Positions 5,860-63,282 of a stretch of DNA of 64,000 bases are shown one piece after another. The position numbers were made by a program, and so were the translations under genes. Position 1 is the first letter of the stretch; every line of letters starts with the position of its first letter. Origin of the DNA: Lepraria neglecta (taxonomy: Eukaryota > Ascomycota > Lecanoromycetes > Lecanorales > Stereocaulaceae); the NCBI GenBank assembly GCA_033220425.1, contig CM065649.1:2790001-2854000 (forward strand), given 5' to 3'. The notes below the pieces were generated by a model. The model was given only the letters and a program-made list of their open reading frames with translations, was not told the DNA's origin and did not search any database.

Positions 5860-7693
5860 ATGGCTTCTCTTTCCACTTTTCTTGCAGCCGCTCTCGCTTT
5901 TACTTTTTTCCCCGTCTCTCAAGGTGCTGCCGCTCCTCAACCTTCGTGCAGATGCCTTCCTGGCGATACTTGCTGGCCCAAGTCCCAGGAATGGACAACA
6001 TTGAATAATACGGTAGGAGGTCGACTTATCGCGACTAAGCCTTTGGCTGCTCCATGCTATGACCCCACTTACAATGCCGCTAAATGCGCCAATCTCAAAA
6101 ACCTGTAGGCGTTTCCAAACCTCCAGTAAGTCGTGTAACTGGTAGACTAGAAGTTATATCCTCTGATCTAGAAATTAGCGAGGAAGATCCATCCTCCATC
6201 ATGAATCCGTGGCAACAGAACGCCAGCTGTGACCCCTTTACAGCTGAGCAATCACCGTGTTTGCTTGGAAATTATGTCTCCTACTCGATCAAAGTGACTT
6301 CCTGGTAGGATGTTGCGGCTGGCATCCAATTTGCGCAGAAGCAGAATATCCGTCTTGTCGTGAAAAACACTGGGCATGAGTAAGTTGCTTCTACCGCTTG
6401 GTAATTGGAATAATCTAACATTGTCTTAGTTACCTAGGCAAATCCACTGGCAAAGGCGCACTGGGTCTTTGGACACACAATCTGAGGTCTTCACAGGTCA
6501 TCAAACAATACAAAAGTGCCTATTACAACGGCCCCGCACTCAAAGTAGAGGCAGGTGTTCTTGGCATTGAAGCTCAGCAAGCGGCTCACGCCGCTGGTTT
6601 ACGCGTCGTTGGGGGAAGTTGCCCATCTGTCGGTATCACGGGTGGCTATACCCAAGCGGGTGGTCATTCCGTATTGAGTTCGGAATATGGACTCGGCGCC
6701 GACCAGGTGCTTGAGTGGGAAGTTGTAACAGCGAATGGCGACCGTATTATCGCTATCCCTTCAAACAACGCTGATATGTACTGGGGCCTCAGCGGCGGTG
6801 GCCCAGGAACCTTCGGAGTCGTGATCTCAATGACCGTTAGGGCTTACCAAGATGGGGCAGTCGGTGGTGCAACGCTTTCTTTTGCCTCGGATGGAATCTC
6901 CAAAGATACTTACTAGAAAGCGATCGCCGCATGGCAGACGCAATTGCCAGCACTGGTCGACGGTGGTGCAACTGCCATCTACATCATGACACCCGAATCT
7001 TTCTCGATTGAACCGTTGAGAGCGCCCTGGAAATCCGAAGCGGAAGTGGATGCTCTGCTCCAACCATTCACGAAGAAACTGACAGAGCTCAATATCAGGT
7101 ACAGTCGTAACCTCAGCTCAGAAGCGACTTTCCTCGATCATTATGATAGATACTTCGGTCCTCTGCCTTACGGTGGCTATCCAACCGCGCAGCTTCTCGG
7201 TGGACGTCTCGTCCCTCGATCCGTCGTCGAGCAAAACAACGACGGTCTCACTGCCGTGGTCCGTGATATTACCGAAAACAGCTCATTCTACGTCGCAGCC
7301 ACAGCCCTTAGCGTCAACAACAGACCTAACAGAACACAGCCAATCTCATCCAACTCCGTCCTCCCAGCATGGCGCGACGCACTCCTGACGGTGCTCGTGC
7401 CATCACCATGGAATTTCACGCAGCCGAGATCCGTCGAGGAGCAGGCAGAAAACCAGCTGACAAACTCACTAATTCCCAAGCTTACGGCCGTGACGCCCAA
7501 TTCGGGGACGTATATGAACGAAGCGGATTTCCACCTTGTATCCTGGAAGCAGGATTTCTACGGCGTAAACTATGACAAGCTGAGGTCGATCAAGGCCAAG
7601 TATGATCCTGGTAGCCTCTTCTATACTGTCACCGCAGTGGGAAGCGATGCATGGAATGTGGCAGATGATGGGAGGATGTGTCGTGCACAATAG
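5860..7693 (+). pseudogene. Secreted FAD-linked oxidoreductase (BBE-like), three in-frame stops
   Basis: A berberine-bridge-enzyme-like flavoprotein oxidase of the VAO/PCMH superfamily. The ATG at 5860 opens a typical secretion signal (MASLSTFLAAALAF). The FAD domain has KNTGHDYLGKSTGKGALG, whose His is a flavin-attachment site in the family, and GGSCPSVGITGGYTQAGG, whose Cys is the second attachment site. The substrate domain and BBE tail (FYGVNYDKLRSIKAKYDPG) run to the natural stop at 7693. Two introns fit well: 6126-6178 and 6380-6429. Three premature stops lie in an otherwise intact frame: TAG at 6106-6108, TAG at 6306-6308 and TAG at 6914-6916. The third sits where the family usually has Trp (TGG); the other two suit Gln (CAG). 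All three fit C-to-T change in a CA context. The gene should be inactive unless the stops are read through. Confidence 0.9.
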
Positions 7694-8461
7694 GCTGGAA
7701 TTATAGAATTGGAGGAGTTTGGGAAGGGGTGTTTGTTCGGATCTGACTTGATTCTTCTTGGTTAATAGATTGAGCTTCACAGCGATATGGATAGGACGGT
7801 ACGTACCGCAAAGTGTAATATAGAGCAGTTGTTGCGAATCATTTCCATGTCACAGAAGGCAGATTCCACATCTCAATCTACCTCAATGAAACTTGCATAC
7901 AGTCCAAGACCACGGACAATGAATACAAGTCAACCATCATCAGAATTCCAGACAATAGGGGCAATGGTTGCGTCGCAGAATGTGGTAATATTACAGCTAG
8001 TAAAAGTAGAGTAACAATGGAATCGGGCGTACTTTACGCTCGTATCGTATTAGCGAGGGCACTCTGCAATCAGCATGCCTCGGTGTGAAATGGTGGCACA
8101 GTTGTTGGTCCACCGATCTGCAGGTGCATCCTGACGTATGGGAAAGTGAGATCGCCTTAGGATTTCTCACTGCAGACTTGGCTGCAGGTGGGATGCAGGT
8201 CCGATAGATTGGTACCTGAGGTAAGGTAATCGCGGTGAAGCTGAAGTTGGGTGTAGCTGCCTGGATTCCGTCCGATGCAGGGTCGTAGCCTTATGGATTT
8301 GGAAGCTTGGTAAGCAGTTACCGCGTGGACAGGGACAGTAGAAACAATTCTTCCTCGCCCTTCAACCTTCTCTCTTCAATCACACTCAACCAAAGCATAT
8401 GAACTTACAGTCTCTTCTTTGTGTCCTACCTTCTCAACTTTTTCGAAAAAATTCAGTCGAA

Positions 8462-9429
8462 ATGCCTGGTGGAAGCCCTACGTCCGTTCTCATCACGGGT
8501 GCCAATAGAGGTAAACACTTTGCAGTCTTCTCCAGTCCGCTTAAAACGAAGCTTCTCATTCTTACGACATCCAGGCATTGGCCTCGGCCTCGTCGAAACC
8601 TACCTCTCTCGACCCTCCACCACCGTCGTAGCCGCCGTCCGCGACCCCAAACATCCCTCCTCACAAAAGCTCTCCTCCCTCCACAAAGACCCCTCCAGCA
8701 AACTCCTTGTGGTGAAGATCGATAGCAAATCAGCAACCGACCCCGCCAACGCCGTGAGCCAAATCAAAACCCAAGGAGTCAACGCTCTCAACCTCGTCAT
8801 CGCCAACGCAGGCATCTGCAACGACCTCTCCCCTCTCGCTACCGCCGACCCCGCGGTCGTAAAGGAACATGTCGACGTGAATGGGTTTGGACCGCTATAC
8901 CTCTTCCAGGCCACGGTCCCACTCTTGCAGAAGAGCGAGGGAGCCAAGTTCGTGGGGATTGGAAGCCCATTGGGCAGTATTGGCGGTATGGACCAGCGCC
9001 CGTATCCCGCCACAGCATATGGAACCAGCAAGGCCGTTCAACATTGGATCGTCCGAAAGATCCATTATGAGCACCCGGAGCTAGTGGCCTTGGTCGTCGA
9101 TCCAGGGTAAGTTGTCCAGGCTATCCTCAAATCCAATGTCCCAGACCCAATCATGGAAGAGTTCAATCTGAATGGCTGACGCGATCGATGTACCAGATTC
9201 GTACAGACAGATATGGGCAATGCTGGCGCGAGGGCCATCGGCATGGAGAAAGCTTTCACAGAGACAAAGGATAGCGTCGCCGGTGTAGTGGCTCAGGTAT
9301 GTCCTCATTCCACGCATCGGTCCTAGTTCTCGGAGGAATGTACTGACGGAATGTAAGATCGATGCGGCTACTAAGGAGAAGGGATCGGGATCCTTTGCGA
9401 TATGGACCGGAGAGACTTTCCCATGGTAG
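8462..9429 (+). CDS. Short-chain dehydrogenase/reductase, ketoreductase (Nor-1-like)
   Basis: A classical SDR of about 250 residues, NAD(P)H-dependent, likely a cytosolic ketoreductase. Four exons join in frame: 8462-8510, 8575-9106, 9197-9296 and 9358-9429. The cofactor loop TGANRGIG is split by the first intron, which supports that junction. NAG lies at the fourth strand. The catalytic Ser is in GSPLGSIGG, followed by the YxxxK signature in AYGTSKA, and then DPGFVQTDMG, usual after the active site. The family resembles fungal Nor-1/aflatoxin-type ketoreductases; the actual substrate is unknown. It follows the dead oxidase by about 770 bp on the same strand and appears intact, unlike its two neighbours. 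The last intron ends in AAG, which is acceptable. Confidence 0.9.
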
Positions 9430-11670
9430 AGGGATAGAATGGGCTGTGAGCTGAGTCGTAAATGAAGGGCGTCAGAACTGTTGCACTACTAGTATGCTTT
9501 GCACATGATGTACTTAGCGGTAAATAGCCCAACATTCAAGACTTTCCCGAATATCATCTACATCCATCAAACTGCTTGATTCTCGAATGGCCGTTACGCC
9601 TTCTACACTCACGTCTTTTTCCCGTTCCTTGCACCGGGACTGTCTAGCTCTTACTGTATCTGTCCTGCCACTTCACTCCTACTGGAATGTATGACCAGCC
9701 AACTCTTCCTCCCAAAGCCACTCGCCATTCCCTATGTCCATCAAACCCATTACTACTAGCCTCCTGCTGCAGAGGAACCAAATGCGGCCGGTTTCCCGTC
9801 ACACATCTTGAAGGCTCTTATGCATTCTTGCTCCGTATCTAATTTTGGCGCCAACCTTAAGTACTGCTGATAAGGGTGAGGAGTGAAACCTAGACTCCTC
9901 AATTCGGGTGGGCTGCAATCGAACAGGTAAAGTATTGTGTCTGCCGCAAGTATCTTTTGCACAAGAATTGGGGCCCTTGACCGCTTGTTGTGTTCCGATC
10001 TCTGGGTGTAATCTTGAGCCTTATCATCGTTGCTCTGTGAGCTTTCTTCTTCCTCGCCTACATTTCCGTGATCTCTTGACGTTTTCCCGTTACCATCTCT
10101 TCTTGGGCCTATGTTCGTACCCCGTGCTCGTCGGGTTGTCCTTGGTTATCATATTGATCCTCCACCGAGGGTATGATCAGGGAAGCGTAGAGAGACCGGG
10201 AAGGCTGAGGGTGAAGATCGAGCTACGGGACCATAACTAGCAAAGCACAAGCTGTCTTCCTGGATGGCCTAAGTGAGGATTGATAGTGTGTCCGGGCAGG
10301 GAAGGAGAGGAAAGGAGAAGAAGAGGTGGAGTATTGAACTATATCGAGGTCAGTGTGTGTCTTCAATCGATGAACTAAGAGGTTAACTTGTATTGATAGT
10401 TTGTATGCATTATCAATATAATGCCTGCATATCTGTCAGATATCCGAGGGAGAGGTAGGCTGTCAGGCTCTACCCTCATTGGGCAGTCTTATTGAGCGTA
10501 TACAAAGACGATTGTAGATGCCGGTGCGTGTCCTTCTCCTATAGACGTGTGTCGTCCGTCGTTACCCCGTCGACCGTAATTACCTTGCCAGCCATCTCGA
10601 GGCTCGCCGTAAGGAACAAGCTCAGTAGAGTATCGATGAGGGAAGAAGGAGAGGAGAGGAGAAGGAAGAAATGTTTACTGCATTAAGGTCAGTGAGTGTC
10701 TATAATCGAGGCTTCAGCTGGCTGACTTACCTGGGAGAATCTTCGTCACTCACGTGGAGCATATCCCCTTCCTTGTACTCGGAGTGGCCGCGCTAGTACT
10801 AGAGGCCGAGTATGGTCTTGGTATAGGAACATTATAATTCTTGGAACGTCAATATAGATTGTAGTTTACATACTACCGCAATACTATAAATATATATAAA
10901 TAAACTATAATTAATGTGTCTTATAGGCTATATCTAGCTCTAAGTCAAAAGATTCGATTGTAGATATTGTAGTTATTGATTAGTAGTCGACATATTGAAT
11001 TGTAGGCAGTTGCGACCGCTGCGGTGCTTCGCAATGATCGAATATCTCGCCTGTACCACACTGGAATTTGGCGGATCGCACCCTTTTCCTACATAGTCCG
11101 GATGGTTTTAACACTTCTATAATAGGAACAGTCTATAAAGAGTAATAGTATTGGTATTTCTAGTATACTTATATGTGGATTCGCGCATGGCTTGCATGGT
11201 AGAATCTGATGTTCTAATACCAAAACCATGTTCGGCCCCTAGTACTAGCACGGCCACTACGAGTATAGTATGTTGTTGTCTTCGTCGAAGAGTTCATCAC
11301 TTTCGCATCCGATGTCGGATTTGTGATGAGTTCCATCACATAGTCTGCTTGTAGATGTAGCAGATAGGTCTCTGCGGTGCAGGTGAGGTTTTCTATTCTT
11401 GCCTCACGCAAGGAGAAAGTTGCTCTATTGCCGCTGCAAGGTGACGTAGCGTAAGCCTCACTTTTTCAATTCTGTCAGCCTTGTTTGAAGGTGGAGCAGT
11501 TCTTACCAAAGCCAAAAGCACATAGAAGTCGAGTGATTGTGCTTCGTTTTTCCATTCCCTCAGCCTTCTGATTGACTGATTCCTTAGGAGCAATCACTAG
11601 TTCCCCCTGTGGAAGTTTTCAACAACCAGGCTCTCCAGTGGCTTTGCCACCAGTCTTTAGCTTACGCAAA
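9430..11670. other. Gene-poor stretch with a degenerate duplicated segment
   Basis: No convincing gene was found. Two segments, about 10290-10395 and 10625-10735, look like diverged copies. Each has a GGAGAGGA-type purine run, then TTAAGGTCAGTG- or ATCGAGGTCAGTG-like sequence and a TCTTCAATCGA/TCTATAATCGA block, followed by a splice-like GGTTAACTT/GCTGACTTA. The region 10840-10990 is AT-rich with TATAAATATATATAAATA, as expected for eroded transposon or RIP-affected DNA. The short reading frame at 9908-10240 has no family features. Confidence 0.4.
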
Positions 11671-12970
11671 ATGGAAATATTATCTAGCGACGAAATACCG
11701 CGCATGGTGGCTCACTTGACCGCACTTCGTTCACTTACATTAAGCCAATGGGATCTTCTCAAGAGAAGGCAAGATTCGAATGCATCTCTGCATAGTATTG
11801 GAAATATTGCAAATGCCCTTCCACAGCTCTTAGACCGTCTTAGATTGAGGCTAGAGGATCCCACACCTGCAGCGGAGCTGCTCTCCTGTACCAGGATATT
11901 AAGTCGTCGATCTAGAATAAGGAGGAGATGCGAATCTTTGATAGGGGACATGATGGAGAAACTCATTGTTCGAGACGAGACCGTTAGCATTATGTGGTGG
12001 AATCTCTGGCGGTACCCCTTGCACTAAGCCTAAAGCGGTTAGCTTAGTATTTCGCACACGAAAAGTCTGTTTACTTTCTGCACGCGGCTTCATAGAGTTA
12101 GCAATAGCATGCAATGAACATGGTTCTTCTCATACGAACTCATTAGCAAGCACATATGCTAAAGGAGAACTAGTAGTGATACTAGACCCGCCTCACCGTA
12201 TCCCCAAGAAAGAGAATTGGCGTATGTTCTACTTACCATGCAGAATCTTGAGGAATCATGCTCGCTTTGCCTGGGAAGGAATTTAGCGTACGTCCTCATG
12301 ATCTGCGATTAAGAATCCATAAGTCTCTAATGAGTCTTCACCTAGTGGGCTCATGAAAGTTGTTGCCTATGATAACCCTTTGAGCGCTGTGATGGATGGT
12401 AGCGAAGACGTTGTGGATGCATTGATCGACCAAGACGCTATCAAAGACATCTCTGATGACGCAATCTATCGTCTTCTGAGTGTAGTCATATGCATGACTC
12501 ACCAAGGAGCAATGAATCTCTTGAAAAGGTTATAAAATCCAGATGAAACGCACCACACCTCTTGAAGATCGTATTGCAGAAGGATCCCGACGTTGTAGGA
12601 TGGTCGTTGATCCGTAAAAAGCTTGGATTAGTCGCCCAAGGTGAATACTCATGGCTTCTCGATCTACGTGACCTGTGTTGCAATGGCAGAAAACACTCAA
12701 TTGACTGACTAGCTAAGAGATAGGAATCTATGGAGTACTAATAGACATCTCTGTCTATTTGCTAACACTTCTGCCTGTGACTAGCGGAGAAGGACAATGG
12801 AATCGCATAAAGAGCAATCAGGCAACCAGATTGCAACAACCTGGGCAATACATTGAATGAGATCTTCGAGACCGCCCTAGAAGAAGCAACGACAAACTCT
12901 CATATCGACACCGGTCAAGCACAGCCGGCAAAAGATGACTTCAAGCTTGATACTGATTGGCATCTACTAA

Positions 12971-12978
12971 ACTGTGTT
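12971..12978. repeat. Left 8-bp target-site duplication (ACTGTGTT)
   Basis: ACTGTGTT at 12971-12978 is repeated exactly at 16219-16226, directly outside the terminal inverted repeats of the inserted element. An 8-bp duplication is the rule for hAT-superfamily insertions. Confidence 0.85.
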
Positions 12979-13442
12979 CAAGGTTGTTAATGGTCGACCG
13001 ACTATTTAAGGGCTTGGCAGTTTGGACCGACTAGTCGGCCGTTTTTCGCTTCGTAGACGGTCCAGTTTGGACTTCAAACTGGACTGCATTAGACGGTTTA
13101 ATATATACAGTCGACGGTTGAACTGTTGGTTTTGCGGAGGTGTGGCAAATTGTTGGATTAGGTTAGGCGTCTTACCTATAAAGGTTAGCGTTGTGTCCGG
13201 AACGGCTAGTAGCCCTAGCCCTAGACCCGGGGTTTACCCGCAAAATGTCAGGCCTGATGCACGCCGGTGTTGTTTAGGATACTTATGGACCCCGAGGGGT
13301 GTTTCTATGCACTTTTTTTGTGGTGTCGTCGTCGTATACCTCGTCGGCGGTGTTGGCAAATACACCGCATTTTTGACTTTCAATCTCCTAGTAAACTCGT
13401 ATTTGATTTGAGCTTGGCGCTACCCAATTTTGGTGAGATTTA

Positions 13443-13502
13443 GAAGTATTGACCTATGGCTCGGCAATACCCATGGCTCGGCACGCTAAACCCGATTAGG
13501 AA
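13443..13502 (+). repeat. Left terminal inverted repeat of the pogo element (60 bp)
   Basis: Bases 13443-13502 match the reverse complement of 16020-16079 without a mismatch. The match ends at base 61. Confidence 0.95.
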
Positions 13503-13689
13503 CCATATGCATTTCTCTCCACATTATCTATTACTCTACATCTATTACACTAAGCTATACATTGATTTAGAGCTTCAGTGAATGTTACCCTATACCCCCC
13601 TAGCCAGGGCGGACCCTTAATTGACTAATTAAACTAAAAAGAAGCACAGAAATTGTGATTAATGGCGAAGATAGATAGGGATTTTAACT

Positions 13690-13915
13690 GTCAATTCGAA
13701 TTCGATTCACGAGGTGTTGAGAGCTCTCAATCCTGATTGGCTTACGCCGATAAGTATTGAGGATCTGCGGATATGGCTACATCAGGTTGCTCAAGCTGAT
13801 TGGTCAATCCAACAGCTTGGATGGTTTCCTGATGCATCTGCCACGGCGGCTGCGTTGGGGAGCTGGTGCTGGCAGGGCGGATGCTGCTGCTGGAGCTGGT
13901 GCTGGAGCTGGTACT

Positions 13916-13955
<40 letters not shown>

Positions 13956-15890
13956 CTGGCGGGGCTGGTGCTGCTGGTGGAGCTGATTTTGCTGGCGGTG
14001 CTGTTGCTGGCGGAGCTGCTGCTAGTGCTGGCGGAGCTGCTGGAACTGGTACTGGCGGAGCTGGTGCTGCTGGCGGAGCTAGTGCTGCTGGTGGAGCTGA
14101 TGCTACTGGCGGTGCTGATGCTGGACTGGACAGATCGTGATCGCTGGTACTTGGTATCGTAGGTGGATAGCAGAAATCAATAGACCTCCCTGGCGTCGAT
14201 TTACGGCCTCTTCTATTGAGCTCTCTGACAGCCTTTAGCTGCCTGGTATTCGCCTTCTTTACACGTTTTGTATCCTCTCTTTCTTGCTATAGACGCTGTT
14301 TTTCTAAATCGGCTTGCTTATGCTCCGCGAGGAGTTCATCGTTTATAAGAATTGTACCAGGAAAGTAAGCTTACTTTCTATTAGTTTTGTTCTGTTTCCG
14401 CTTATTAAGCTCTTTAAGATGATTAGTAGTATAGTAATAAATTTGTGCATTGGATCGATAATAGGTTGCTGCTTTAGCAATCTTCTGGGTTCTTATATTG
14501 AATACCTTGAATATGCGGAGTAGCCTTTCTATAGCAGCATTATCGTAAGGTGTATCCGGCTATAGAATGTCGCTGATACTGTAAGTGATGCTATTGATCT
14601 GGATTTCTGGTGGTGTAGTAGGGCAGATAGAATAAGCGATTTAGAGGTTACCCTGGATCACTGGGTTTGAAGCATCCTCCTGTGTATTGGCTGTATAGTT
14701 AGGAAGCTTCTGGAGCACTTGTATTGGCTTAAAAGGAGCTAGACCTGATACCTCCTAGGCCTTTATAATGGTTAAAGTGGTAGTGACTTGCCGACAAGCA
14801 AGTATATAGAACTCTAAGAACTCTAATTTATCGATAGAGTAACTAGCTCCTAGTCTACTTGCTCGTTGAATATTCGATTTATAGATATTAGCGAGTAGTG
14901 TAAAGAAGCCAACATCCAGCGGCTATAGAAGATATGTACTGTGCGGTAGCAAGTAGAGTACGATAATCCTATTGGCTACAGCGAATTCGATAGCCTTAGT
15001 AGTAATATATGATGTATGGCCGTTAAAGATAAGTATTCGATATTTTTGGCCTAAATCGTTCCTGTATATCTGCTTTTAGAAGTACTGTAGCCACTCGAAG
15101 CCAATATTATTATCGGTCTATCCATTTATACTGGTACGTATAGACCATAATGGCTCTATCTTTTCAAGCTGATTAACCTATAAATATATAACTACTTTGC
15201 CTTTAAAGATAATCCAGGGAGGAAGGACCCGGCCATCCATTGAGATATAATCAATAGTAGTTACCTATTCACGATTGCCAGGTTAAGTCATTGTAGCTTC
15301 TTTGTTATACTTTGAAATAATAACTTGCATTTTGGCTATAACTCCTATCATGAAGCCTTTCTTATCTATATTCTATATATCTTGATCCTCAACGTCATAT
15401 ATGCTCCTAGCCTTTTGATATATATTGAACCAGTACTTAATGACTGCTGGATTCTCTGCCTGATGCTGTACTTTATTGAGAGGAGGAACAAATTTGGTTT
15501 TGAATTGAGGGTGTCGAGCAAGGAATTTGGCTAACCAGTGTACTCCGATAGGCTCTATGTCGTTCTTAGCTTCCAGTAGCTCTTTAGCTATACTAATAAG
15601 CTGTTGGATCGTTAACGGCCAGCCCTAGGCCTCCAGTCGCTTAATATAGCTGCAAAGTGCTTTTTCTTCTCCTTCTGTTAAACGCTGTCGAAATTTAACT
15701 ACCTCAGCATAAGGTATTTTACCGTTAACTCGATCGTTTAAGGTGCTTCTGGGTAGCCCATACTGCCTTACAACCTTGCTCAGCGAGTCGTTGTTAGTTA
15801 GTAATCGAAAATGTTGACAAGTAAGTTGGTATCGGAGTTCTTTGGGAAGCTCTTCTTGCTCGTCAGCTTCGTCTTGAGGGGGGAAGCTTT
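13690..15890 (-). pseudogene. Fot1/pogo DDE transposase, multiple stops
   Basis: Reading the minus strand from about 15890 gives a helix-turn-helix part (SLSKVVRQYGLPRSTLNDRV), a CENP-B-type part (GVHWLAKFLARHPQFKTKF) and then the DDE core (NIDKKGFMIGVI, ILIFNGHTSYITTKAIEF and PLDVGFF). In this family the second block is normally FDGHxS; here the Asp codon reads AAC (Asn), so a catalytic acid is lost. Stops interrupt the frame, for example TAG at 15373-15375 (normally Trp) and TAG at 14923-14925 (normally Gln, as LLQPLD). Further ones follow DNA positions where CAG is expected. The tail becomes an Ala/Pro repeat. All these changes are C-to-T or G-to-A in CA/TG context. Confidence 0.88.
13866..14130. 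repeat. Low-complexity GCTGGTGCTGGAGCTGG tract
   Basis: An imperfect 6-12 bp repeat of GCTGGN units. It reads as an Ala/Pro-rich tail on the minus strand (the transposase direction) and as Gly/Ala on the plus strand. The plus-strand reading frames across it are artefacts of composition. Confidence 0.85.
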
Positions 15891-16019
15891 ACTGGGCCCC
15901 GTAACAGGTATCTAGGGGAGTTCTTTAAGGCATTTGGGAGTACTGGGAGGGTGGTTGGGTGGTTGGGTGGTTTATGTGATAGATAAATAGTCGTTGTTGA
16001 CAAATTCAGAAGATTGCGA

Positions 16020-16079
16020 TTCCTAATCGGGTTTAGCGTGCCGAGCCATGGGTATTGCCGAGCCATAGGTCAATACTTC
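16020..16079 (-). repeat. Right terminal inverted repeat of the pogo element (60 bp)
   Basis: Mirror copy of 13443-13502, followed by the TA duplication at 16080-16081. Confidence 0.95.
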
Positions 16080-16218
16080 TACACCAAATCCAGGTGCTTT
16101 GCGGCTCCTTTTTAATACCTCCGCACTTAAACCGTCAAGACTATTAGTCGACTACTGGTTTTAAACAGATGAACCGTCTAACTTTCAAACTGGACGGTTT
16201 GGACCATTAACAACGTTG

Positions 16219-16226
16219 ACTGTGTT
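16219..16226. repeat. Right 8-bp target-site duplication (ACTGTGTT)
   Basis: Exact copy of 12971-12978. Directly downstream the host reading frame resumes with codons for PIGRPVADGSGTL. Confidence 0.85.
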
Positions 16227-18795
16227 CCTATAGGTCGTCCTGTTGCCGATGGTTCAGGTACTTTGGATCTTAACCATGACGAGGACAGCTGGACACAGTC
16301 TGCTTCCGACAACAGTGAACTTCAAAGGAGACTATGGACACAATGTGGGCTTGCTGGATCAGTACCAGGGTGCCAGATGGGCAAGCCGAGCTATAGCGCT
16401 GTGATAATCGAAGGGGCCAAGGCGTGGGTCTACTACAGTGACTTGGACGATCCGGATTCTCAGTGGAAGTAAGATGATCATTTTTGGGGGACTAAGAGAA
16501 TATGGTAGACTTTTTTTGACTAATTGGTTCGTTCTCTTGCTAATATTAAGGTAGGACTCGTCCAGACGCCCCGTTTTTGAGAGGCCTCATATGACGTCGT
16601 CCCTATCTGCTAGTGCTTCCAACTATAAATATCGGCCGACTCAGTCTGGTGAATCTAGCTCTGGCCGCCGAGAACATATGGTTCTTTACCTATTCAGCCG
16701 ACCGCAAGTTCGACCGATCAAACAGCTAACTGAGGCTACAACAAGGCTCTGTAAAGCAGCAGCGATAATTCAGAACAGCAGCATGAGCTGTAATGCATTC
16801 ACTGCCATGGTTTTTAGGCGAACCCTAGATGGTCAAAGGTCGGCAGTTGAGATGGTTAGCATTTCATTCAAAACGTTGAAGGATTTCAGCGACTCTGCCC
16901 TAGCTCTTTATCAAGAAACGAAAGATGGCAATACTGTGGGGCCCGCCATCGAAAGATATGCTGCTATCAGTAAGAGGCTTTTTTGCATATTTCAGTACCT
17001 CGAAGAGGAAGACCCGCTCGCTTACGATGATGTCCGAGGTATTGACGGGGACACTCATTGACTACAAGCTAGACATAGCCTGTCTCTTTTCACAGTTTCT
17101 AGGACTGGGCCTAATCTTCTATTCTCAGGTACACGTGCGCCCCTTACGGCCTTTCCTCCTGGGGGGTCCGTTGACTGAAATCGTACTCCGTGGTGGTCGA
17201 AAAAATTCCCTCGTTCTCGCCGCTAGGCTCCGAGATCTGACTTGCATGAGCGAAATGGTCGGTGGCCCAGTGTTCGTATTTGAGATCAAGACGAACCTAA
17301 ATTTGGACCCACCACCCATATCAGCACGAGCCGTAGATTTCCGCGGACGTGGAGCTGATATTATTGATACTTGGGGGCCTGGAATGCTTATTACTGAACC
17401 TGGGGATCCTTACGGAGAGCAGCTATACGGGATTGAGATAGCCGGCGGAGTCATCAGGCCTTCCGATTACGGTATTTTTTCACTGGCACCGGTATCTGCT
17501 TCCCTATGACAAAACTATGGAGACTTTCAGCTGTTGGGAAGACATTCGTATCGGAGCAGTCCACGCTCGACACCGCTGCCTAACGGATCCACAAAAACGC
17601 CGAAAACAATCTGAACAGTCACTATGCTATCCTGGCTCAGAGGCAGCTTATTGGCAGCTCGCTCAGAGGCAGATCGCCTTCCAGACTGGAAGCTATGCAA
17701 TCCTTCAAGTGGGTAACATCTACAACAGGAAGGTTGGCAGGACTGTGAAAAGAAGGATACTTGAGACATGGCCCATAATGCCTAACTTCCACGTGCTCGA
17801 GTTACCATTGGGGCTGCAGGTCAGCTTCTGCACAGGAATAGCCAGAAGAGTGCCTTTGCGTGAGCTTATCGAGGATTCACTGTTCGGACATGTCGACAAC
17901 CTAGGCATAGAGCAATGGGAAGGATTACAACAGAAAGCTCGGGCTGCGTTCAGAGGGTCGACTGATTTTGGAGAGTGGATCAAGGGACTCAAACCCCAAG
18001 AAAAGACCTGTCTTACCACAGTAGTCGGTTACCCGTTGCAGATCTTAGAGAACACAGGCTTGGACAGAGAGAGCAAGAGATTTTCAATACTGTGGCCACA
18101 ACCCTCGAGTGCAATTCACGGCATTGAAGTCCTCTGCGACTCCTCAAGGAACTCCTAGGCTCGTATATTGCGCGATTCCGAATGGTGCGCTACCTTCACC
18201 GCCGTGACTTCATTGTGCTTGGAGAGCGCCACCTATTGCTGTAGAGGCATAGATGGGAAGTCACACATTGGTCTCATTGGAGGACCATGCCTATCGACCG
18301 TCATAGGCCGCTATGTTCCGGCCGAAGCAGTGACATACAAACGCATAGCTGAAAGCTGGAAGCTCCAAGATGGCAAAAAGTATTGGATGGGCTCAATTGG
18401 GTCAGACATCCTAGTGGAAGATCGGAAGAAAGGGAGCTCGGATACACAGCTTGTGGTCAAAAGTAGCCGTTATCCTATGATGGTAGCACGAAGGCTTGGA
18501 TTTGAGATCCTTAGAGAGAGACAAGGCTGTGATTTTGAAGGGGAGGAAGTCCTTATGACGTGAGCTAGAACCATCTCTCAAAACCAGACGAGTTCTTGAT
18601 CCAGGCAAGTGCATCCATAGCATTCTCATCCTTTGCAGCCGATGAAAATGTGATGCCTTACGTACTATATTCGTAGCGCCATCGCGGAATTGACGAGTTT
18701 GTAATTAGAAGAAGAATGAATTCATAGAAAGGCTTCCTGCCGAATTGAAGAGGGACTATATCCACAATTTCAAAGGGGCATTTAATGAAACATCA

Positions 18796-22046: not shown

Positions 22047-22299
22047 AGTCGCGATGCTGGGGAAAGGGATGACCGCATGAGCAAAAGAGCACGGTTTTGC
22101 TTGGAACAAAAATGCTGATGCCTCTGATTATCACTAGGGCAGGAAGCAGGCATAGGTACAGCATGCGTGTCATTTGTGTTAATATTGCAGAAGATCATTA
22201 GCCAATGCGCTAGTCCTAATTCATGTTTCCATTTCTCTCAGTATTGAGCTTCGCCTCATTTCTCACCGAGAGGATTTGCGCTTGGTATCTTTTGAATTG

Positions 22300-24115: not shown

Positions 24116-24213
24116 CTTGTTTTGATGCTAGGGCTATGCACTGTTAGACATAACATAGTAGTCCTTTAGATGGATATCTAAAGAACTTGTCAGGGGTATA
24201 ACCGTCAATGACC

Positions 24214-35735: not shown

Positions 35736-36840
35736 ATGTCACCCAACAGTACGCCTCTACACGACGGCCCCCAATACCGGCGCTATCGCGCTAGCTTTCC
35801 CACCGAGGAAGAAAAAGAGGATGTGGACATCATGATTGAAAGGTTTGCTAGGCCAAACTACTACACCTCCGAAGACTTCGAGCTTTCTTTCGCGTGCCGG
35901 ATGGAGAAAGACGAGCTTATCCGGGCTCAAATACGGGGCAAGATTACTCTCGAGGAGTGTTTGAAATATCTAAGGAGATCACCCCCGTGTTCTAAGTGGA
36001 GGTGGCACTGTGGTACTAGTGCATACTGTTCCACGCGCTGAAATAGAAAAGTATTGGAAAGCCTCTGAAGAATATAATAAGACCAATGAAGAAGACGACG
36101 ACTCCGATCAAGCTCCCATTGAACCATTTACCGGGCCGGCCTACCAGCGTTTTCGTGCTACGCTTTCCACCGAAGCCGAAAAAGTGGAAACCCATCGTTT
36201 GGTTGCCAAAGAGCGCAATTTCTACTCGGATGAACAGATCGAGCAAAGCTTCACTACGCAGTGGAAAGCAGACGAAGACTTCAGAGCTGCCAAGAGTGGA
36301 GAATTCTCGTACAGGGAATGGGGCAAGAGAAGCCGAGATGAGGATAAATCCTCACCAAAGATGATGCCAATCAACATCATACGCACTGCCATTCCATGGG
36401 ACGAGTACATAGAATACGTCAAGCCTCACGAGAAATAAATACGCGGTCTAAGGCCTGAAGGAACTCCCCTCACTTCATTCGATGGGGAGAACTACCAACG
36501 CTTCCGCGCAACACTTGCTACCGAAGATGAGAAATTGGCAAGGGGTGAGGAGGCTGACAAGTTACTTGATGATCACACCGAGAGGGACGTCGACAGTATC
36601 TACCGCCAAGCTTGGAGGAAAGACCAGCTGTTCAGGGCTGCAAAAGATGGCGACATCAGTTACGAACAGTTCCTGGAGTATGATAAACCAAATGACGGCT
36701 AGTCCAAACGGCTCAACCGACCGCCTCCTCCTGCAGCCGTACATTACATGAGTCTGCCAAAGGTGCCATCTGCTATTCCTGAGGAGGAGTGCAAGAGATT
36801 TTACGAGGCTCATGAGAAAGACGGTGCTAGCAGATCATAG
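35736..36840 (+). pseudogene. Orphan gene built of three tandem repeats, decayed
   Basis: Three copies of an approximately 65-75 residue unit follow one another. Each starts G-x-x-Y-x-R-[FY]-R-A: GPQYRRYRASFPTEEEK at 35760, GPAYQRFRATLSTEAEK at 36136, and GENYQRFRATLATEDEK at 36484. Later in each unit comes a D-x-x-[FI]-RA-x-x-G block (RAAKSGEFSYREW, RAAKDGDISYEQF). A shorter fourth tail ends PEEECKRFYEAHEKDG at about 36770-36825. The first unit is separated from the second by a frame change near 35990 that no good intron repairs. TAA at 36436-36438 and TAG at 36700-36702 interrupt the second frame, with coding sense continuing after both. Both could be CAA/CAG hit by C-to-T. No known domain recognised. 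Confidence 0.6.
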
Positions 36841-37520: not shown

Positions 37521-37526
37521 TATAAA
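37521..37526 (+). promoter_or_regulatory. TATA box of the orphan gene at 37677
   Basis: TATAAA, followed by a long pyrimidine-rich leader (CCCTCTCCCTCCCTCC and beyond) and then an A/C-rich stretch directly before the ATG at 37677. This is the common architecture of strongly expressed fungal genes. Confidence 0.55.
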
Positions 37527-37676
37527 TTCCAATTTTCATCCCTCTCCCTCCCTCCATCCTTCTTCTTCATCACTCCAACGGATCAGACTTCAACATAAAC
37601 AGCAACTCACTCACAACTCTTCAACCACACTCCTCCCAAACACAGAGAATAAGAACTTCTTCTTCAAACGAGCAAT

Positions 37677-51770: not shown

Positions 51771-51779
51771 CTCCTTCAA

Positions 51780-55700: not shown

Positions 55701-55925
55701 GTTCCTGACCCCCTGCAACTACGCGGAATCACTCCCAATCCATCATGATTCTCATCCATGATTCAGATACTCTTATCTCGGGTTCGTTGTTCGTGTTCGG
55801 AGTGCTTCAGGTTCCCGAGACCTCCGCCCAATCAGGCACCGGAACGTATAGTGCGAACACACTTCCCACTGGAACGAACCGCCAAAAAACCGAAAGCGAA
55901 CACTACTTAACATCAATTTCCTGTT
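52721..55925. other. Gene-poor stretch upstream of the medA-like gene
   Basis: No supported gene. Frames at 53257-53643, 54112-54471 and 54817-55203 show no motifs and overlap other equally long frames. Since the next gene is a developmental regulator, part of this 3.2 kb may be its extended promoter; that is an inference from position only. Confidence 0.4.
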
Positions 55926-56324
55926 ATGGTCTCCGCCTCAGCTTCCAAACACAGTTTGCAAAGCGATTACGGTGCTGCGGGCAATCTCGTTCCTCCTTAC
56001 ATCCAAAAGCCTCCTAGCTCGTTTCCCCGACCATTACTTTCTCAACAATTACCATCCAACTCACAGCCAAGCTGGATTCACTCACCTATTCTGAGCTGGA
56101 AGTAAGTACAACAATTCATTCTACTGTTTTACTGGCGAGGACCAAGCAGATCCATTCCAAGGAATGCGCCAAGCGAAGGGCTCGAAACAACAACATCGTC
56201 ATCGCATGAGCACATCTGCGTTGGACGAGGACCTTCGCAAGCTATCATTCGTCTTTCCTGCTTTCTGCTAGCACTGGACACAGTGCTACAGCTGTGCGAC
56301 CTAGTAATACATGGCTCAAACTGA
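55926..56324 (+). promoter_or_regulatory. Long leader with a possible spliced upstream ORF
   Basis: An ATG at 55926 opens a Ser/Pro/Gln-rich frame (NLVPPYIQKPPSSFPRPLLS) that reaches a good donor (GTAAGTACA at 56102). Splicing to the acceptor at 56149 keeps it open to TGA at 56322-56324, overlapping the regulator's start codon (56311) in another frame by 14 bases. It would encode 116 residues. Other acceptors I tested do not put it in frame with the main protein: the one that has the right phase (56210) meets TAG at 56269. It may instead be an unrecognised true N-terminal exon. Confidence 0.4.
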
Positions 56325-58995
56325 CTCAATGACTTCACAAACGGATGCTAACGATCTAAAGCCACAGACTCGCAACTCTCCTGTCATCGTTGGCGACCAC
56401 TACGAGCTGGCAGAGACTGTGGCCGCAGGATACGGTGGCGAGCTTCTCGGCGGCCTGCTAGCCAAGCCCGACAGCCAGCCGGCTCTGCTGTCTATGTCAG
56501 GATACGAGAAGTTTCAAAATGCCGACTTGAATGGTACGTTCTTTCCAACCTGAGGCAGGCTTTTCTGCCCAAACCCAGCCTTAGCAGGCATCTTCGTGCT
56601 CATGCCTCGCGGCGGCAAGCATTCGAGGCATTTTAGGCTGACGCCAGCCTGACAGATTACGATGGCAGAAGACCATCACAGAGCTATGCTACTCTCGCCG
56701 ACTACAATGCTAGCCGGCCTACACAAGAGTCAATGTACCTGACATATGCTTTGCCCGGGACTGCCGACCCGGAGTTGCAGCCTCCTTCAACGGCGTATGA
56801 TCGAAATGCAGATCAGCTGGCCTACGGAGCTAGCTCCATAGACCAGCCCCGTGCTCCATATGAGGCAACGAACTCAGCCTACAGCGGCTGCCAAGCTGGA
56901 AAGCTTCCGGAGATTTCGTCTTACAATCCGCCGCGAGGCTCCAAAGACTCCCATGTCTTCATCTACCTGGACTCAAGTACCGATTTGCTTGTACCTTCAC
57001 CACTAATTGCAAGCTTGATGTTCGCGACACGCCAAGTCCCTGCCACGCTTACTCGCCTTGAGAACCGCGAGAAAGATGTTTACTACAAATACGTGGTAGA
57101 TGCGCGCGCTCCATCGTTTGCAGAGACAGGCTCGCCCAATGCACGAATCTCGTTACGACTCCAACTTCAGGAGCAATCCGGAGTCGATGCAGGGTTAATA
57201 AATGTCGGTCCGTGGCTGTATGAGGATAGTAGACAGATCGAAACTCGAACTTTGCCATATGCTAGCCGCAAAAGGAAAATGACTGGGGAGTCGCCAGAGC
57301 TATCCCATTCGGCCAAGAGAGGAACAACACCGCAACAGCAGACCGACGAGCCACAACAGTATGGCTCATATGGATATGCACAGGGGACAAACTTGGCATA
57401 CCACCAAGGCTTGCACTCCATCGACCTGAGCTCGATGCAGAGGAAGCTCACACCTTACGGGAGATCTCAAAGCCAACAATTACTTCAAGATGACACTTCA
57501 TCCATCTCATCGCACACTTATCCGGGGAGTGTAGCTTCATCGCATTATGTTATGAGGCCTCCCTCAACTCAGACCTCAGCGTGGAGTCCATACATTATGA
57601 GCTATCAGTCAGGGAGGAGTCCGGCGTTGAGCACCCAATCCTTTTCAACTTCAGCCACCTCTCCGAATCCAGTAAATCCTCCTCTTGTACGCTCATCAAC
57701 CTTGCAAACACCATCCGGCTCGGCATCCGCCTCTGGAGCTTCATCATCAGATGGAAACTTCAATCCTTACGCTCACTATACCAATAAAGCGATCATCAAG
57801 ATTCGTGGAGACCTCAACACCATGCAAGATGGCTGGAGTGCCGATGAGCGGGCAGCCAAGCGACGACTGGTTCTTTTCCGAGGCGAGCAGCGTGGAAGCA
57901 CCATCAACACCTACTTCAAGTCTATCAAACCAGACGAGCGGCCTTCTCCTCACGCAGTAAGAGAACGCCGAGTCAGCTGCATCTACTGGGAAGAGCGGGA
58001 AGAGTGCTTCGTCACAAGCGTGGACACCATCGCTCTCCTGGAGACATTAGTTGGCGCACGCTTCACGGTGGAGGAAAAGAATCGCATTCGTCGCAATCTC
58101 GAAACCCACCATCCGTTGACAGTGTCAAAAGGCAAACCGGACACGGAGAACTTCTTCAAAGTCATTATGGGATTCCCAAACCCAAAGCCCCGAAATATCG
58201 AGAAAGACGTCAAGGTGTTCCCATGGCCAATCTTAGCGCAAGCTTTAAGGAAGGTCATCAGCAAATATGTAAGTCTTCCCGTCTCACCCTTCATCCAGCA
58301 TTACTTACGGCCCGCAGTCTGCAAGCTTTGCATCAACAGCTGGCCCCCCTACAACCTCCCGCCCTCCAAGCTACGCACGAGCCCAGTCGGAACAAATCTC
58401 TGAGCCCTACTTCTCCTCAGGTTCCTCTACAACCTCAACTACCTACACACAAACCCTCAAATCAGCTACCCTCTCGCCGCCCACTGTCACACCACACGGT
58501 CTACCCCAATATTCGCAAGCATCACCGCTATCCTACACCGTGCCCACGCTAGCGAGTCAATACCCCAATCACGATGCCGCAAGACCCTTAGTCTCAAACT
58601 CAGCCTATAATACCCAAATCTCCTTCCCGGAGCTCTCGCACGCCTACACCAGCTCTTCAATCGGTCGCCGTCGCTCTAGCGAGGCGGGAATCGGAACGCT
58701 AGGATCGAGTCCATATACCACGACCACGAGACCTCGCGCCAATACTTCCTTCGCAAACCTGTACGCCACGCAGAATGCCACCAACGCCGGTGACTGGCAG
58801 CTGCCTACAGTCGGACAGCCAATTCGCGGCTCCTGGGACTTCTCGTCATATCTTCAGCCAGATTCTGGCTCCATCAGCCAAGACTACAGACGTGGATCGA
58901 TGGTGAAAGCGGAGCAGGGCGCTGCGGCTGGGTACCAGCAGGAAGAGGCAGACCAAACGGCGTCGCAAGCTACTATTACGTCGGGTACCACATGA
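56311..58995 (+). CDS. medA: Medusa-type developmental regulator (MedA/Ren1/Acr1 family)
   Basis: Three exons (56311-56533, 56656-58268, 58318-58995) give 837 residues; junctions are DLN-DYDGRRPS and ISKY-SASFASTAG. A first conserved block (about residues 175-225; STDLLVPSPLIASLMFATRQ) is followed by Gln/Ser-rich sequence. The main block (about 455-612) holds IRGDLNTMQDGWSADERAAK, then CIYWEEREECFVTSVDTIAL, FTVEEKNRIRRNLE and VIMGFPNPKPRNIEKDVKVF. I know this order from MedA of Aspergillus and Ren1/Acr1 of Fusarium/Magnaporthe, which control conidiophore and spore development and adherence. It is thought to act in the nucleus. The C-terminus is Ser/Thr-rich. The symbol is by family resemblance, not by orthology test. 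Confidence 0.88.
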
Positions 58996-60465
58996 CAGTA
59001 TACAAGTGCGGATTATGTTGCGCAAAGAATCGATGACTCCTCGATTCCCATTTTCTTTGGGATGAGGGTGTGCTTGTCGCCTCATAGGATCATCTGCATT
59101 GGTCATGCGCCACACTTTTTGGTCGCGCTAACCGCATCCGGCCACCACCATCACCACACCACATTTTCCAAACAATTTACATCTGCATTTAGGTGGCATT
59201 GATTTTGCTTCTTACTATCGCGAACACAAGGTTTTTGTATTTGCTTTCTCGATGTTGCTTCCATTGCATAAGCGATTGGTGTTTTGTGCTGGAGCTTGGC
59301 AATTAGATTCTGCTTCTTACTGGCTGGAGCTTGGGAGGGAAGGCATATATCATAGCATTTAGATGCAATGTCATTCGCTTATCTAGATACCTCCTGCGCC
59401 CTGCTTCTGGTCGTGTTGTTCGTGTTTTCGACATGAGGCTCTTGCACTTAAGCTTTGACCAATTGTTGGAAAGGCTCATGCAGCAAGAGAACGCGCCAAG
59501 GTACATGCTGTGGTAGCCTCGTCATCACCTCCAACAATCTGGGTGCCTACTCCATGCGGTTTCCTAGCTTCCAGGCTACATCTCGAATGCGGCGCCCTGA
59601 AACGCTTGGGGTTCTAAATATAGCATCACCAACTTCTTGACTCCAGGGATCCTCAAACATGGTGCTCTGCACTAGAGACGGCCACTGTCAGCCTGATGAT
59701 TTTTCGACCTTCTTGGTCTTGCATGACCCATGACACCTTGAGTAGCTCTCAAGCTAGAGAAGTCTCGGCAACGCACTGAATTAGACTAGAGCTAGCCAAA
59801 CCGCGGTCTCGAACATCTGATTGATACTTTGCAGATCCTTCGATGAGCACTCGCCATAGGCATCCACACGGGCGAGCTGGGCACATCTACTTCCATTTAT
59901 ACAATTCATCCCGCTCCCTTCTTGTGTATTTCGGCTTGTATCCGCTATCGTGCCAGCAACTGCTACGGGAATGGCAGGGTATCAGTTTCGTATTTTTCAG
60001 ATCTACTGAAAGGCTTAGCAACTAACAGCTGTACCAGAGATTTGATCTTACATCTGCCGTCTTTTCCACCAGCAATAAATCGATGGAACTCGAGAAGAAA
60101 TCGTTACCACTGCGGGGTAAGTACAACGGCGATCTACAGGTCAAGCATCATCGATTATGAGCCCTTGGAGTAAATGAAGGCCAGGCCATACTCGGCTACT
60201 ATTCAGGCATCAGCCAATGCTATCGTCGGGCACCGAGACCTCAGAGACTATCTTGACACTGGACAATGTGACGAATCATTTTGCGGAAGATGTTGTGCAT
60301 TTGTCTGACTTGTTGTGTACATCTTCCACCTGTGAGCAGCTTCGCATGAATGGCAAGAGAATTAAATACGTCGCGAGGATTAGGAGAGTAATCGCTTTTG
60401 ATATTTGCTCTTACCCTGCAAGCAGTTGCTCACTTCCAAGATTCACCACCCTTTCCCTAGCAGCC
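58996..60465. other. Intergenic, nothing recognised
   Basis: Between the 3' end of the medA-like gene and the 3' end of a minus-strand relic. Short frames only. No repeat or RNA gene was seen. Confidence 0.45.
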
Positions 60466-61940
60466 TCAATCATTGTTGACATCTCCACCATCCTCTTCAG
60501 GATAGAAAGTGGCGCGAACAGCTCGTTGTCGCCTTGAAGCCTTCGCACCCATCGATTTCTTAATGCTCTGTACAGTCCGAGTTGCTTTGTCATTTTTGGA
60601 ACGAGTACACCAAGTCACACTCGCGACCACGACTGGCGGCGTGCTGCTGGAGTTTTGGTCAAAAGTAGCTTCGCTTCCAGCAGGCGTAATGGGACTCCTG
60701 AGTGGGCTGAGGTGTTCATCAAAGGCTGGGACATACTGTGTGGCAGGTGCTTTGGAAGATTCGGCTGCGTGATCATTCGCTTGTGGGCTCTTTGCATTCA
60801 GGGTGAGACCCGAGAAGACAATAGTGCGTGGAGGGATGCTAGGACCGGCTACCATGGTCCCCGGAACAACTGTCGATCCGGTCCAATGTGGCTTAGGCCT
60901 AGGTCAGTCTTCTGCATGGCGCGGTAAACAGGAGAGAGGTCACACTTGGGAGTTGTGACAGTACCGTGAGGGTCTGTGCGTGCTAAAGGCTTTTCTTGTT
61001 GAGGACTATCCGATGCAGCTGCAGGCTGTGCCTCGGTCATTTGCTGCTTTACTCTCCCTTGACGAACGTATTCTGCGAAAGGCATATTCGTTACAGCTAT
61101 AAGCTGTGCATTGAATATTTGCTGCTTTGTTCTCACATGATGAATAAAGACTGCGTAAGTGATACCATCACAATCATGGTCGGCATCGTGTCTGCTCTCA
61201 CTACCTTGATGAGGCTCGCGGCTAGATTGGCCATTATCGATGCGATCTTCGCCACGAACTGAACAAGAATCGAGATTGCGAGCGGGAGAACCGAGGCCGT
61301 CATCTAGCTCTGACTCTACTTTCTTGCCGGTGCGGGCAGTGCGAGCACCATAATCGCATTGTGTTACAACAATGTTGGGGTCGATGTAATTCTCAGCCTC
61401 TGGCACAGCGTCGCCGGCTTCTTGACGCTCCTTCTGACGTATAGCTTGCAAGAGGCCCTTACGCTTAGCGTCAGCAGCCTTTCTGCGGGTGTCGAGATTG
61501 TGCTAATCGCCGGATAGACGGACAGGCTCATACTCGCCCACTTCACCATGAAGAGGTACCCGACCGTTCGGCCATAAGGGTTCTCCAGCACGAACGGAGC
61601 CAAACATGGCCACACCACATGCGGATCGACGCCACGCTTCGAGCTCGCCTTGCGAAGAGAACTGGCCCAAAGCATTGTCTACATTAGGGAAAGACGGATC
61701 ATAGCCCATTCTTGAACCTCTCGCGGCATGCGGGACCGTGTTCTCATCTGGTTGATTGTAGATACGAGACTAACAAGATCCAAAGGGATGACAGCCCCTG
61801 GGAACTTGACATGTTGGGCAAAGGTCGGTATGATCGGTGAAACACGAATTTTAAACAGCACGAGGGAGAGCCGGTCCCATACGAGGTCCCTCAAGCGCTC
61901 CAGGAGCTGGAACGCTATGCATTGCGCCATTCATGTACAT
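60466..61940 (-). pseudogene. Uncharacterised gene with three stops and a frameshift
   Basis: From the ATG at 61938-61940 one frame reads MYMNGAMHSVPAPG, a Cys-rich part (CFTDHTDLCPTCQ), GYDPSFPNVDNALGQFSSQ, DTRRKAADAKRKG and onward to about 60910. It is broken by TAA at codon 30 (61851-61853), TAG at codon 57 (61770-61772) and TAG at codon 146 (61503-61505). Near 60905 the sense moves one frame (KPHWTGSTVVPGTMVAGPS) and continues to the stop at 60466. All three stops can come from CAA or CAG by one C-to-T change. The Cys/His spacing might bind zinc. No family recognised. Confidence 0.55.
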
Positions 61941-61996
61941 CATTGGAGCAGGTCCATTTCTTCAACTTCTTCAACTATATAGCACTCATAAGCCAC

Positions 61997-62817
61997 TTAA
62001 CGCGCCTAAATAACTCACTATGCCTCGCAAGCGTACCTCTGACGATGTCGACCACGTCATCCCCGACCCCAAGCCCTTCAACGCCCCCAAAACGCGCCCC
62101 CCAGACCCCTGGCCGCTGCCAGACTACGAGCCCATGCATATTAGGCAACCATTCAGAACAGGCATCCATGACCTGCCTAGCAACGCCTCTATTAAGTCTC
62201 CTTTTGCGATATTCAGCCTAATCTTTGACGTTTCTATACTCAAAACGATTACTGAGCATACTAATAAGTACGCCTCGCTGCACCAGCCAAATCCTACCGA
62301 ATTTCCAAATCACCGCCCCTGGAAGCCTATAACTTAGAGGGAGCTCAGGGTTTATATAGGGAAAGCTACATCGAGAGTTCCGCACAGAGCTTATTATTGG
62401 CTTAAATAAGCACTCTGAGCGTCTGACTCAACCTACTGTCCGATCTAGACCCCTAAGCGACTAAATCCACCAAGCCCACTAAGCCGAGCACCAGCTAGTA
62501 CGCCTCTCTACTAAAGCTAAGCCTTGTAGAGTATATACTACAGCAGGGAGGAAGGTCAGGAGGTAAATTAGCAAGGCTATAAGCAAGCGGAAGACTCTTG
62601 AAGAGCTAGCACCAAATTTAGTGCTACAGGGTAATTTGGCGGGGAGGCGCAAAGAAAGATCACCAAGGTCTAGATTTAGCTGCAATACTTGCCACATCTA
62701 CCTGTATAACTATCAGACGTGTTGGAAGGACCATATAAGGCTTATTTATTGATTGGTGGACGGTGTAGTTTTACCTTTTCAACGAGGTGTTTACTTGGCA
62801 ATACAGGGGATATCTTA
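61997..62817 (+). mobile_element. piggyBac-like element remnant with internal deletion
   Basis: The frame 62020-62337 (MPRKRTSDDVDHVIPDPK, then FAIFSLIFDVSILKTITEHT and HRPWKPIT) matches the N-terminal part of fungal piggyBac-derived transposases. After a stop, ELRVYIG and RAYYW continue the family sequence in degraded form. At 62681-62734 a cysteine-rich end (CNTCHIYLYNYQTCWKDH) resembles the C-terminal zinc finger of the family, so the DDD catalytic middle is deleted. TTAA, the piggyBac target, lies at 61997-62000 and 62814-62817. Both lie inside CCACTTAA in inverted orientation (61993-62000 and 62814-62821). The true ends are not proven. Confidence 0.7.
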
Positions 62818-62868
62818 AGTGGTATGATCACCTTAAGGCATGATAGTGGTAGATTAATCTCCTAGACG

Positions 62869-63282
62869 CTAATTGATATAGAATTTGAATTGATGGTAAA
62901 AGACGCTGCCGAGACCTGCGCGCATATGATGATCATAGCTACGGCCAGGGACTTGATATGCAAATGGGCTAAGGCCTGCTCGGCCAGGGATATGAATGTG
63001 GGCGGCGGGCGGTTGCTGGTGGAGTTCCTCTTTATAGAGTGGGGGAAACTGGTTCGTGTCCCATGTTCGGTGCACCATCATTGGCTCTGGATATATAGGA
63101 CCAGGACCTTGAAGAGGCGGCTACTGTCTATGCCGCTCTCGATCATGATGATCGCGAACAATCTGGGTATGATCATATGCTCGATGGCTTTCGAAAGACG
63201 TTGGAGAGTCTATCACACTTGGTGGCAGATGCCCCAGATATGAACCATAGCTGCCGTAGCTGCCATAGCTGCCGTACGTCAT
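62869..63282 (-). pseudogene. Small Tyr/Gly/Ser-repeat gene with one premature TAG
   Basis: From the ATG at 63280-63282 the frame reads MTYGSYGSYGSYGSYLGH, a GSY repeat (seen as CCATAGCTGCC units on the plus strand at 63245-63276). It then meets TAG at codon 54 (63121-63123) and goes on for 83 further codons (WDTNQFPPLYKEELHQQPP) to a stop at 62869. Bases before the stop are CAG-like (HRQ then TAG), so a Gln-to-stop change is plausible. A TATATA at 63553-63560 stands about 275 bp upstream on the minus strand. A hidden intron instead of decay is possible. Confidence 0.45.

Follow-up and report, generated by a model that had tools for sequence, protein, structure and literature searches.

The window analysed here, a stretch of 64,000 nucleotides (C4:2790001-2854000), lies on a chromosome-scale contig of the 42.0-Mb, 11-contig genome of Lepraria neglecta, a lichen fungus of the Stereocaulaceae and not a pathogen. 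It contains a pogo-like DNA transposon which, as judged from its mutation spectrum and its repeated target, is mutated by repeat-induced point mutation (RIP), whereas the broken genes besides the transposon are best read as a mixture of causes. We give this explanation as a whole a probability of about 85%. The element, its surroundings and the two stops considered first are the following:

13441..16081, minus strand: nested pogo-like DNA transposon of 2,641 bp, the RIP victim
12978..16219, no strand: outer non-autonomous element resembling a miniature inverted-repeat transposable element (MITE), whose terminal inverted repeats are 18 nt long and which the pogo-like element interrupts
14923..14925, minus strand: transposase-frame stop, a stop in 4/8 copies and a Gln codon in 4/8
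15373..15375, minus strand: transposase-frame stop, a stop in 3/8 copies and a Trp codon in 5/8

The terminal inverted repeats of the pogo-like element are 62 bp long and 100% identical (13441-13502 / 16020-16081). Its Tc5-HTH and HTH_psq domain matches are both under the Pfam cut-off, and the name pogo is taken from the original prediction for this DNA. At least seven other long copies with 94-96% identity were found in the genome; this count is a lower bound, since 40 of 75 first-look candidates were scored. The window copy was aligned with these seven, four copies being turned to a common orientation. The ancestral state at C/T and G/A columns was assumed to be C or G, and the direction of change was taken from the sequence context. 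The alignment revealed 287 variable columns, which comprise 286 transitions and one transversion. Polymorphic sites were found at 238 of 378 CpA, 43 of 204 CpG, three of 285 CpC and none of 390 CpT positions (CpA against the remaining contexts: Fisher p = 8e-107). The mutational load differs between the copies, with 16 to 184 derived and 0 to 51 private sites per copy. In the window copy the transposase frame (13936-15888, a stretch which may extend beyond the true end of the transposase gene) is interrupted by 13 stops, 9 TAG and 4 TAA, so that the two stops counted originally were too few. Summed across the eight copies in one frame stretch, there are 64 TAG, 42 TAA and 2 TGA. Those at 14923 and 15373 are classic RIP stops. 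RIP indices are ordinary in the genes flanking the window copy and in the flanks of six of the seven other copies.

In model systems RIP is a premeiotic process. According to the history proposed here, a pogo-like transposon, nested in an older MITE, spread until there were at least eight long copies. RIP then turned C before A into T on both strands of the duplicated DNA, a conversion which gave TAG and TAA and almost no TGA. A RID-type methyltransferase would be the agent, and the process would have taken place in sexual (premeiotic) cells. Candidate genes for this machinery are present: six matches to the DNA methylase family (PF00145) fall in four genes of the genome. Of these, a gene on C4 (C4:1123940) is of the RID type, with an LEQT motif and both PF00145 halves, and another is DIM-2-like; we take the EQT motif to mark RID, and the motif assignments to RID and DIM-2 are likewise our assumption. 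A fourth DNA methylase gene was found in addition to these two and the following one. At C5:383638-384801 there is a second RID-like gene with an LEETFGLTR motif, which carries a TAG and an apparent frame change near its C-terminal end. It may be a decayed paralogue.

Outside the window, one of eight sampled 10-kb stretches (C4:3500000-3510000) is heavily RIPed. In this stretch 14 of 19 windows are RIP-positive, the GC content is 0.375 and the substrate index per kb goes down to 0.25. No RIP-positive windows were detected in the other seven sampled stretches or in two stretches beside the mating-type (MAT) locus.

The original prediction had explained twelve premature stops in six separate relics as a single RIP-like series, each stop being derived from one C:G-to-T:A change in CA context. 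All twelve triplets were confirmed at their coordinates, and as predicted they are TAG or TAA (10 TAG, 2 TAA, no TGA):

TAG stops, read from the sequence: 6106, 6306, 6914, 14923, 15373, 18156, 36700, 61503, 61770, 63121
TAA stops, read from the sequence: 36436, 61851

TGA makes up 44% of the stop triplets across the whole window, and its absence among the twelve has p = 0.001 against six-frame triplets, a value weakened by the fact that the list was hand-picked. The proposed CA context could be checked for eight of the twelve stops and held for six (6106, 6306, 6914, 14923, 15373 and 18156), where the codons of the relatives fit. It does not hold for 36436, where the relatives have Tyr or His, and it is undecided for 36700, which is shared with the related protein P0132. 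CpA-type sites make up 68-73% of all C>T nonsense targets in the three single-copy genes anyway, so four out of four CpA-type stops there are unremarkable on that basis. The idea that RIP struck duplicated copies thus stands for the pogo-like element and is not supported as an account of all six relics: for the single-copy genes no close copies were found, and their indices are ordinary. The other changes in the oxidase and in the gene with the stop at 18156 are mixed. The twelve stops are not one series, and a single common cause is rejected.

Among the single-copy genes, the only plausible target of light RIP is the following:

5860..7693, plus strand: flavin adenine dinucleotide (FAD)-linked oxidase pseudogene of the berberine-bridge type, with FAD_binding_4 and BBE Pfam matches

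It has two introns and three in-frame stops (6106, 6306 and 6914), and no frameshift was seen when its three exon pieces were aligned with relatives. The stop at 6106 is opposite Trp in all four relatives which reach that point. At 6306, Gln is found in four of six relatives, the other two having Asp and Ala, and at 6914 Trp is found in 12 of 14, with Tyr in the other two. All three stops are compatible with a change from CpA to TpA. Among its named relatives the closest come from lichen fungi, at 79% for Lecanora helva and 77% for others. No DNA of these relatives was found in the bacterial and viral collections, and they were therefore compared as proteins only. A search of the 42-Mb genome with the first 1,341 bases (5860-7200) for a close DNA copy gave only 216 bp at 67% identity, and the protein paralogue in the genome matches in pieces at 40-48% identity. 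A second broken oxidase, suspected in the paralogue at C4:2735292-2735471, was dropped, its TAG being read as an intron acceptor. The RIP indices of the pseudogene (0.72/1.22) are ordinary compared with those of the window (0.76/1.29). At near-uniform alignment columns eight residues are private to the window; three of these are CpA-type changes (one of them a stop), two are CpC-type and three are transversions. CpA-type changes account for two of four private C>T changes without the stop (p = 0.15) and three of five with it (p = 0.043).

Several points weigh against the explanation given above. The original prediction had suggested sliding-window RIP indices and alignments with homologues as checks. 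When the strict criterion with 1-kb windows is applied to the index, not a single one of 127 positions is RIP-positive, the pogo-like element included, and only 500-bp windows with a looser threshold (13001-13500, 14751-15250 and 15501-16250) flag the region of the element. The index alone would therefore miss the RIP of the element, and the case rests on the alignments. These revealed a strong CpA bias in the pogo-like element and mixed changes in the oxidase and in the gene with the stop at 18156. One of the other copies of the element (L010) sits within a RIP-like region. The boundary at the window copy is not clean either, because the adjoining arms of the MITE are RIP-like in composition (indices 1.45/0.75 and 1.80/0.70). 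The CpG changes (43/204, or 19/161 with uniform neighbours) may be ordinary deamination. The activity and the timing of RID are inferred. For the oxidase, the probability that all three stops are of the CpA type is 0.07-0.22 under neutral spectra, and three such stops without a frameshift are easier to reconcile with light RIP than with a long period of neutral decay.

Light RIP might have affected the oxidase alone, besides the transposon, at a time when it was duplicated, the partner copy having since segregated away. Such a light attack would leave little trace in the index: 41 of 248 CpA sites in the gene can give nonsense, so three stops imply ~18 hits (3/41 of 248), and ~18 hits are too few to shift the index much. 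The ordinary indices and the missing copy in the present genome are nevertheless points against it, together with the three private transversions and the CpA share of 2/4 among private C>T changes other than the stop. Although 3/3 CpA-type stops in a frame without frameshift speak for this possibility, we hold it only tentatively. The oxidase may owe its state either to the ordinary decay of a pseudogene or to light RIP, which is plausible, against a copy lost since then. A functional gene, in which the TAG codons are repaired in the mRNA by adenosine-to-inosine (A-to-I) editing, is extremely improbable. Editing of stops is known from the sexual tissue of some Sordariomycetes; to our knowledge, for which no literature search was made, it is not known in Lecanoromycetes. 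It would suit three stops which are all TAG, two of them at a conserved Trp, in a frame that is otherwise open, but editing would yield Trp where most relatives have Gln at one of the stops, and the genus Lepraria has not been seen fruiting.

The arms of the outer MITE are matched at many places in the genome, and its terminal inverted repeats (12978-12995 / 16202-16219) are 94% identical. Comparison of one arm with two copies gave conflicting results, with 0/7 and 11/15 transitions in CpA/TpA context. A raised RIP index (1.16/0.84) occurs at 10500-11250, which has no copy elsewhere among the matches listed (best 40 of 121 candidates), and an imperfect 57-bp inverted pair is located in or just beside it. 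Two dispersed short repeats at 12676-12838 (~163 bp, 96-99%) and 11982-12165 (~183 bp, 92-95%) have many copies each; the ~163-bp repeat is hardly mutated despite its many copies. As a control for a length threshold, five and four copies of these repeats, out of ~20 listed for each, were compared: 3/4 and 4/8 transitions are in CpA context, which is too few changes.

The remaining relics of the window are listed below.

16221..18563, plus strand: gene remnant (fungal, uncharacterised) next to the transposon, with relatives P0121-P0131
35700..36702, plus strand: uncharacterised lichen-fungus gene, public annotation OEA41_007951, with protein relatives
60849..61979, minus strand: open-frame pieces, a candidate gene only, no Pfam match
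62869..63281, minus strand: short open frame with the stop at 63121, a candidate gene only
61956..62815, no strand: old dispersed repeat with 27 other matched pieces (69-93% identity), which adjoins the 61-63 kb stops

In the remnant at 16221-18563 the stop at 18156 is opposite Trp in all eight aligned relatives (11 hits) and is compatible with a CpA change. In a T run near 17480 its reading frame apparently shifts by one base, as a comparison of the overlapping frames (16904-17509 and 17442-18158) with the relatives indicates. No DNA copy of the 16.2-18.7 kb stretch was found in the 42-Mb genome. Only 2 of 25 residue differences from P0121 are of the CpA type, and the remnant is best read as an ordinary decaying gene. 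For the gene at 36 kb, P0133 is the protein OEA41_007951 of L. neglecta, with a 99% match across the aligned part, and here again the 42-Mb genome yielded no DNA copy. The Tyr or His found opposite the stop at 36436 (TAA), in those relatives which reach that point, would require a transversion. At 36700 (TAG) the 88%-identical P0132 ends too, so this stop probably predates the split from P0132; the more distant P0134 and P0136 (62-63%) read past it. The RIP indices of the three single-copy genes (0.72-0.82 / 1.17-1.26) are ordinary. Relatives of the 16.2-18.6 kb gene and the 36-kb gene (P0121/P0135 and P0122/P0134) lie on equally long contigs of two other assemblies (4,677,656 and 132,579 bp), which suggests that this gene neighbourhood is conserved.

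At 61-63 kb the frame pieces which hold the stops 61503, 61770, 61851 and 63121 gave no Pfam match with an E threshold of 0.1, and their coding-potential scores are weak. Within the genome, the largest of the 61-kb pieces has no match besides itself. The adjoining repeat (61956-62359) was compared with five copies and shows 14-28 of 27-47 transitions in CpA/TpA context, together with 9-25 transversions.

It is very unlikely that all six relics were RIPed as duplicates, with partner copies which have since disappeared or are missing from the assembly. For none of the three single-copy genes did the DNA search give a close copy, their indices are ordinary, and a CpA-type origin of 36436 is not compatible with its relatives. 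In favour of this model, RIP does operate in this genome, a CpA origin is compatible with six of the eight stops that could be checked, and the oxidase has three stops with no frameshift seen; yet the private changes of the oxidase are mixed (3 CpA, 2 CpC, 3 transversions), and the gene with the stop at 18156 combines a frame change with the small CpA share (2/25) noted above.

For the pogo-like element, RIP in L. neglecta is apparently recent, as the comparison of its copies indicates. The eight copies (~21,000 bases) contain only one transversion and three CpC changes, whereas a comparison gene of 242 codons has 10 transversion-type residues against the nearest protein found (P0121). Measured in this way, RIP acted long after the split from that protein. 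If the 43 CpG changes, which are ambiguous, represent background, the copies would be somewhat older. As derived and private site counts vary among the copies, many hits postdate insertion. According to a passage of PMC10210240, Lepraria is exclusively asexual and sexual reproduction was apparently lost completely. The marks could then be leftovers from a sexual ancestor, a reading which part of PMC7882544 offers for RIP in apparently asexual fungi. The heavily RIPed stretch on C4 could indeed be old, and the copies would be older than their transversions alone suggest if all 43 CpG changes were background. The very few transversions and CpC changes and the uneven loads (16-184 derived, 0-51 private) argue against such an age, and we regard ancestral RIP as unlikely.

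Genes with a role in sex were found in the genome. A gene with a high-mobility-group (HMG) box split over two frames by an intron (L045, at the locus C1:917000-933000 together with L052 and L053) is recognised as MAT1-2-type by features which we presume to be typical. Its neighbours are an SLA2-type gene (I/LWEQ) on one side and, on the other, an APN2-type gene (Exo_endo_phos and a sub-threshold GRF finger). Another HMG-box gene (L043, C1:2769014) was rejected as MAT1-2, because L045 fits better with its SLA2- and APN2-type neighbours. The MAT alpha profile (PF04769) had no match in the genome, its controls being equally silent. A SPO11-type exon is also present. Pfeffer et al. (2023) reportedly characterised, by the title of their paper, the L. 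neglecta genome and its MAT locus, probably on the same assembly. A literature search combining Lepraria with RIP, cryptic sex and mating found no report of RIP in this genus, the genome paper of Pfeffer et al. (2023) being outside its coverage. MAT loci are retained in several supposedly asexual lichens, as described in a part of PMC6414310, and the retention of the MAT locus and SPO11 is therefore weak evidence of sex.

A RIP-like deamination of CpA could also be active in vegetative, asexual cells of L. neglecta. An excerpt of PMC7882544 advises that a tie of RIP to non-sexual processes should not be discounted, but the same excerpt places RIP before meiosis in model systems, and the kept MAT1-2-type locus and SPO11-type exon speak, weakly, for sexual cells; we think this mechanism rather improbable. 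Sex which is rare or was recently lost is the likeliest state of L. neglecta. That the fungus still runs RIP on fresh transpositions, and so reproduces sexually in a hidden cycle or did so until very recently, is given an even chance.

RIP is already well known, lichens included, and the stronger result is its apparently recent action in a reputedly sexless lichen. RIP might be used as a clock for sex: copies with hardly any differences other than those of the RIP type would be a sign of recent meiosis-linked activity, even where no fruit body is seen. If this is true, the long-term asexuality of dust lichens becomes directly testable. If RIP were asexual instead, it could run without sex, which would be important too. 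The mutation of the pogo-like element resembles Neurospora-type RIP in its restriction to transitions, the preference for CpA, the action on both strands, the long multi-copy target, the TAG and TAA nonsense and the presence of a RID-type gene. It differs in that Lepraria is a genus without a known sexual stage and in that several copies are lightly hit. Cladonia rangiformis presumably belongs to the same order as Lepraria. In the part of PMC12542154 considered here, it is likewise a lichen fungus with RID and DIM-2 homologues and RIPed islands, and two of its DNA transposon families are far less RIPed than its retrotransposons. Its strong RIP could mean frequent sex, according to the authors in the same part (PMC12542154), whereas Lepraria is called exclusively asexual, and here the spectrum was resolved site by site on one element. 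The apparently asexual fungi treated in the excerpt of PMC7882544 resemble L. neglecta in that they bear a RIP signature although no sexual stage is known. In contrast to what is offered there, the Lepraria copies are nearly without transversions, which suggests recent and not ancestral RIP.

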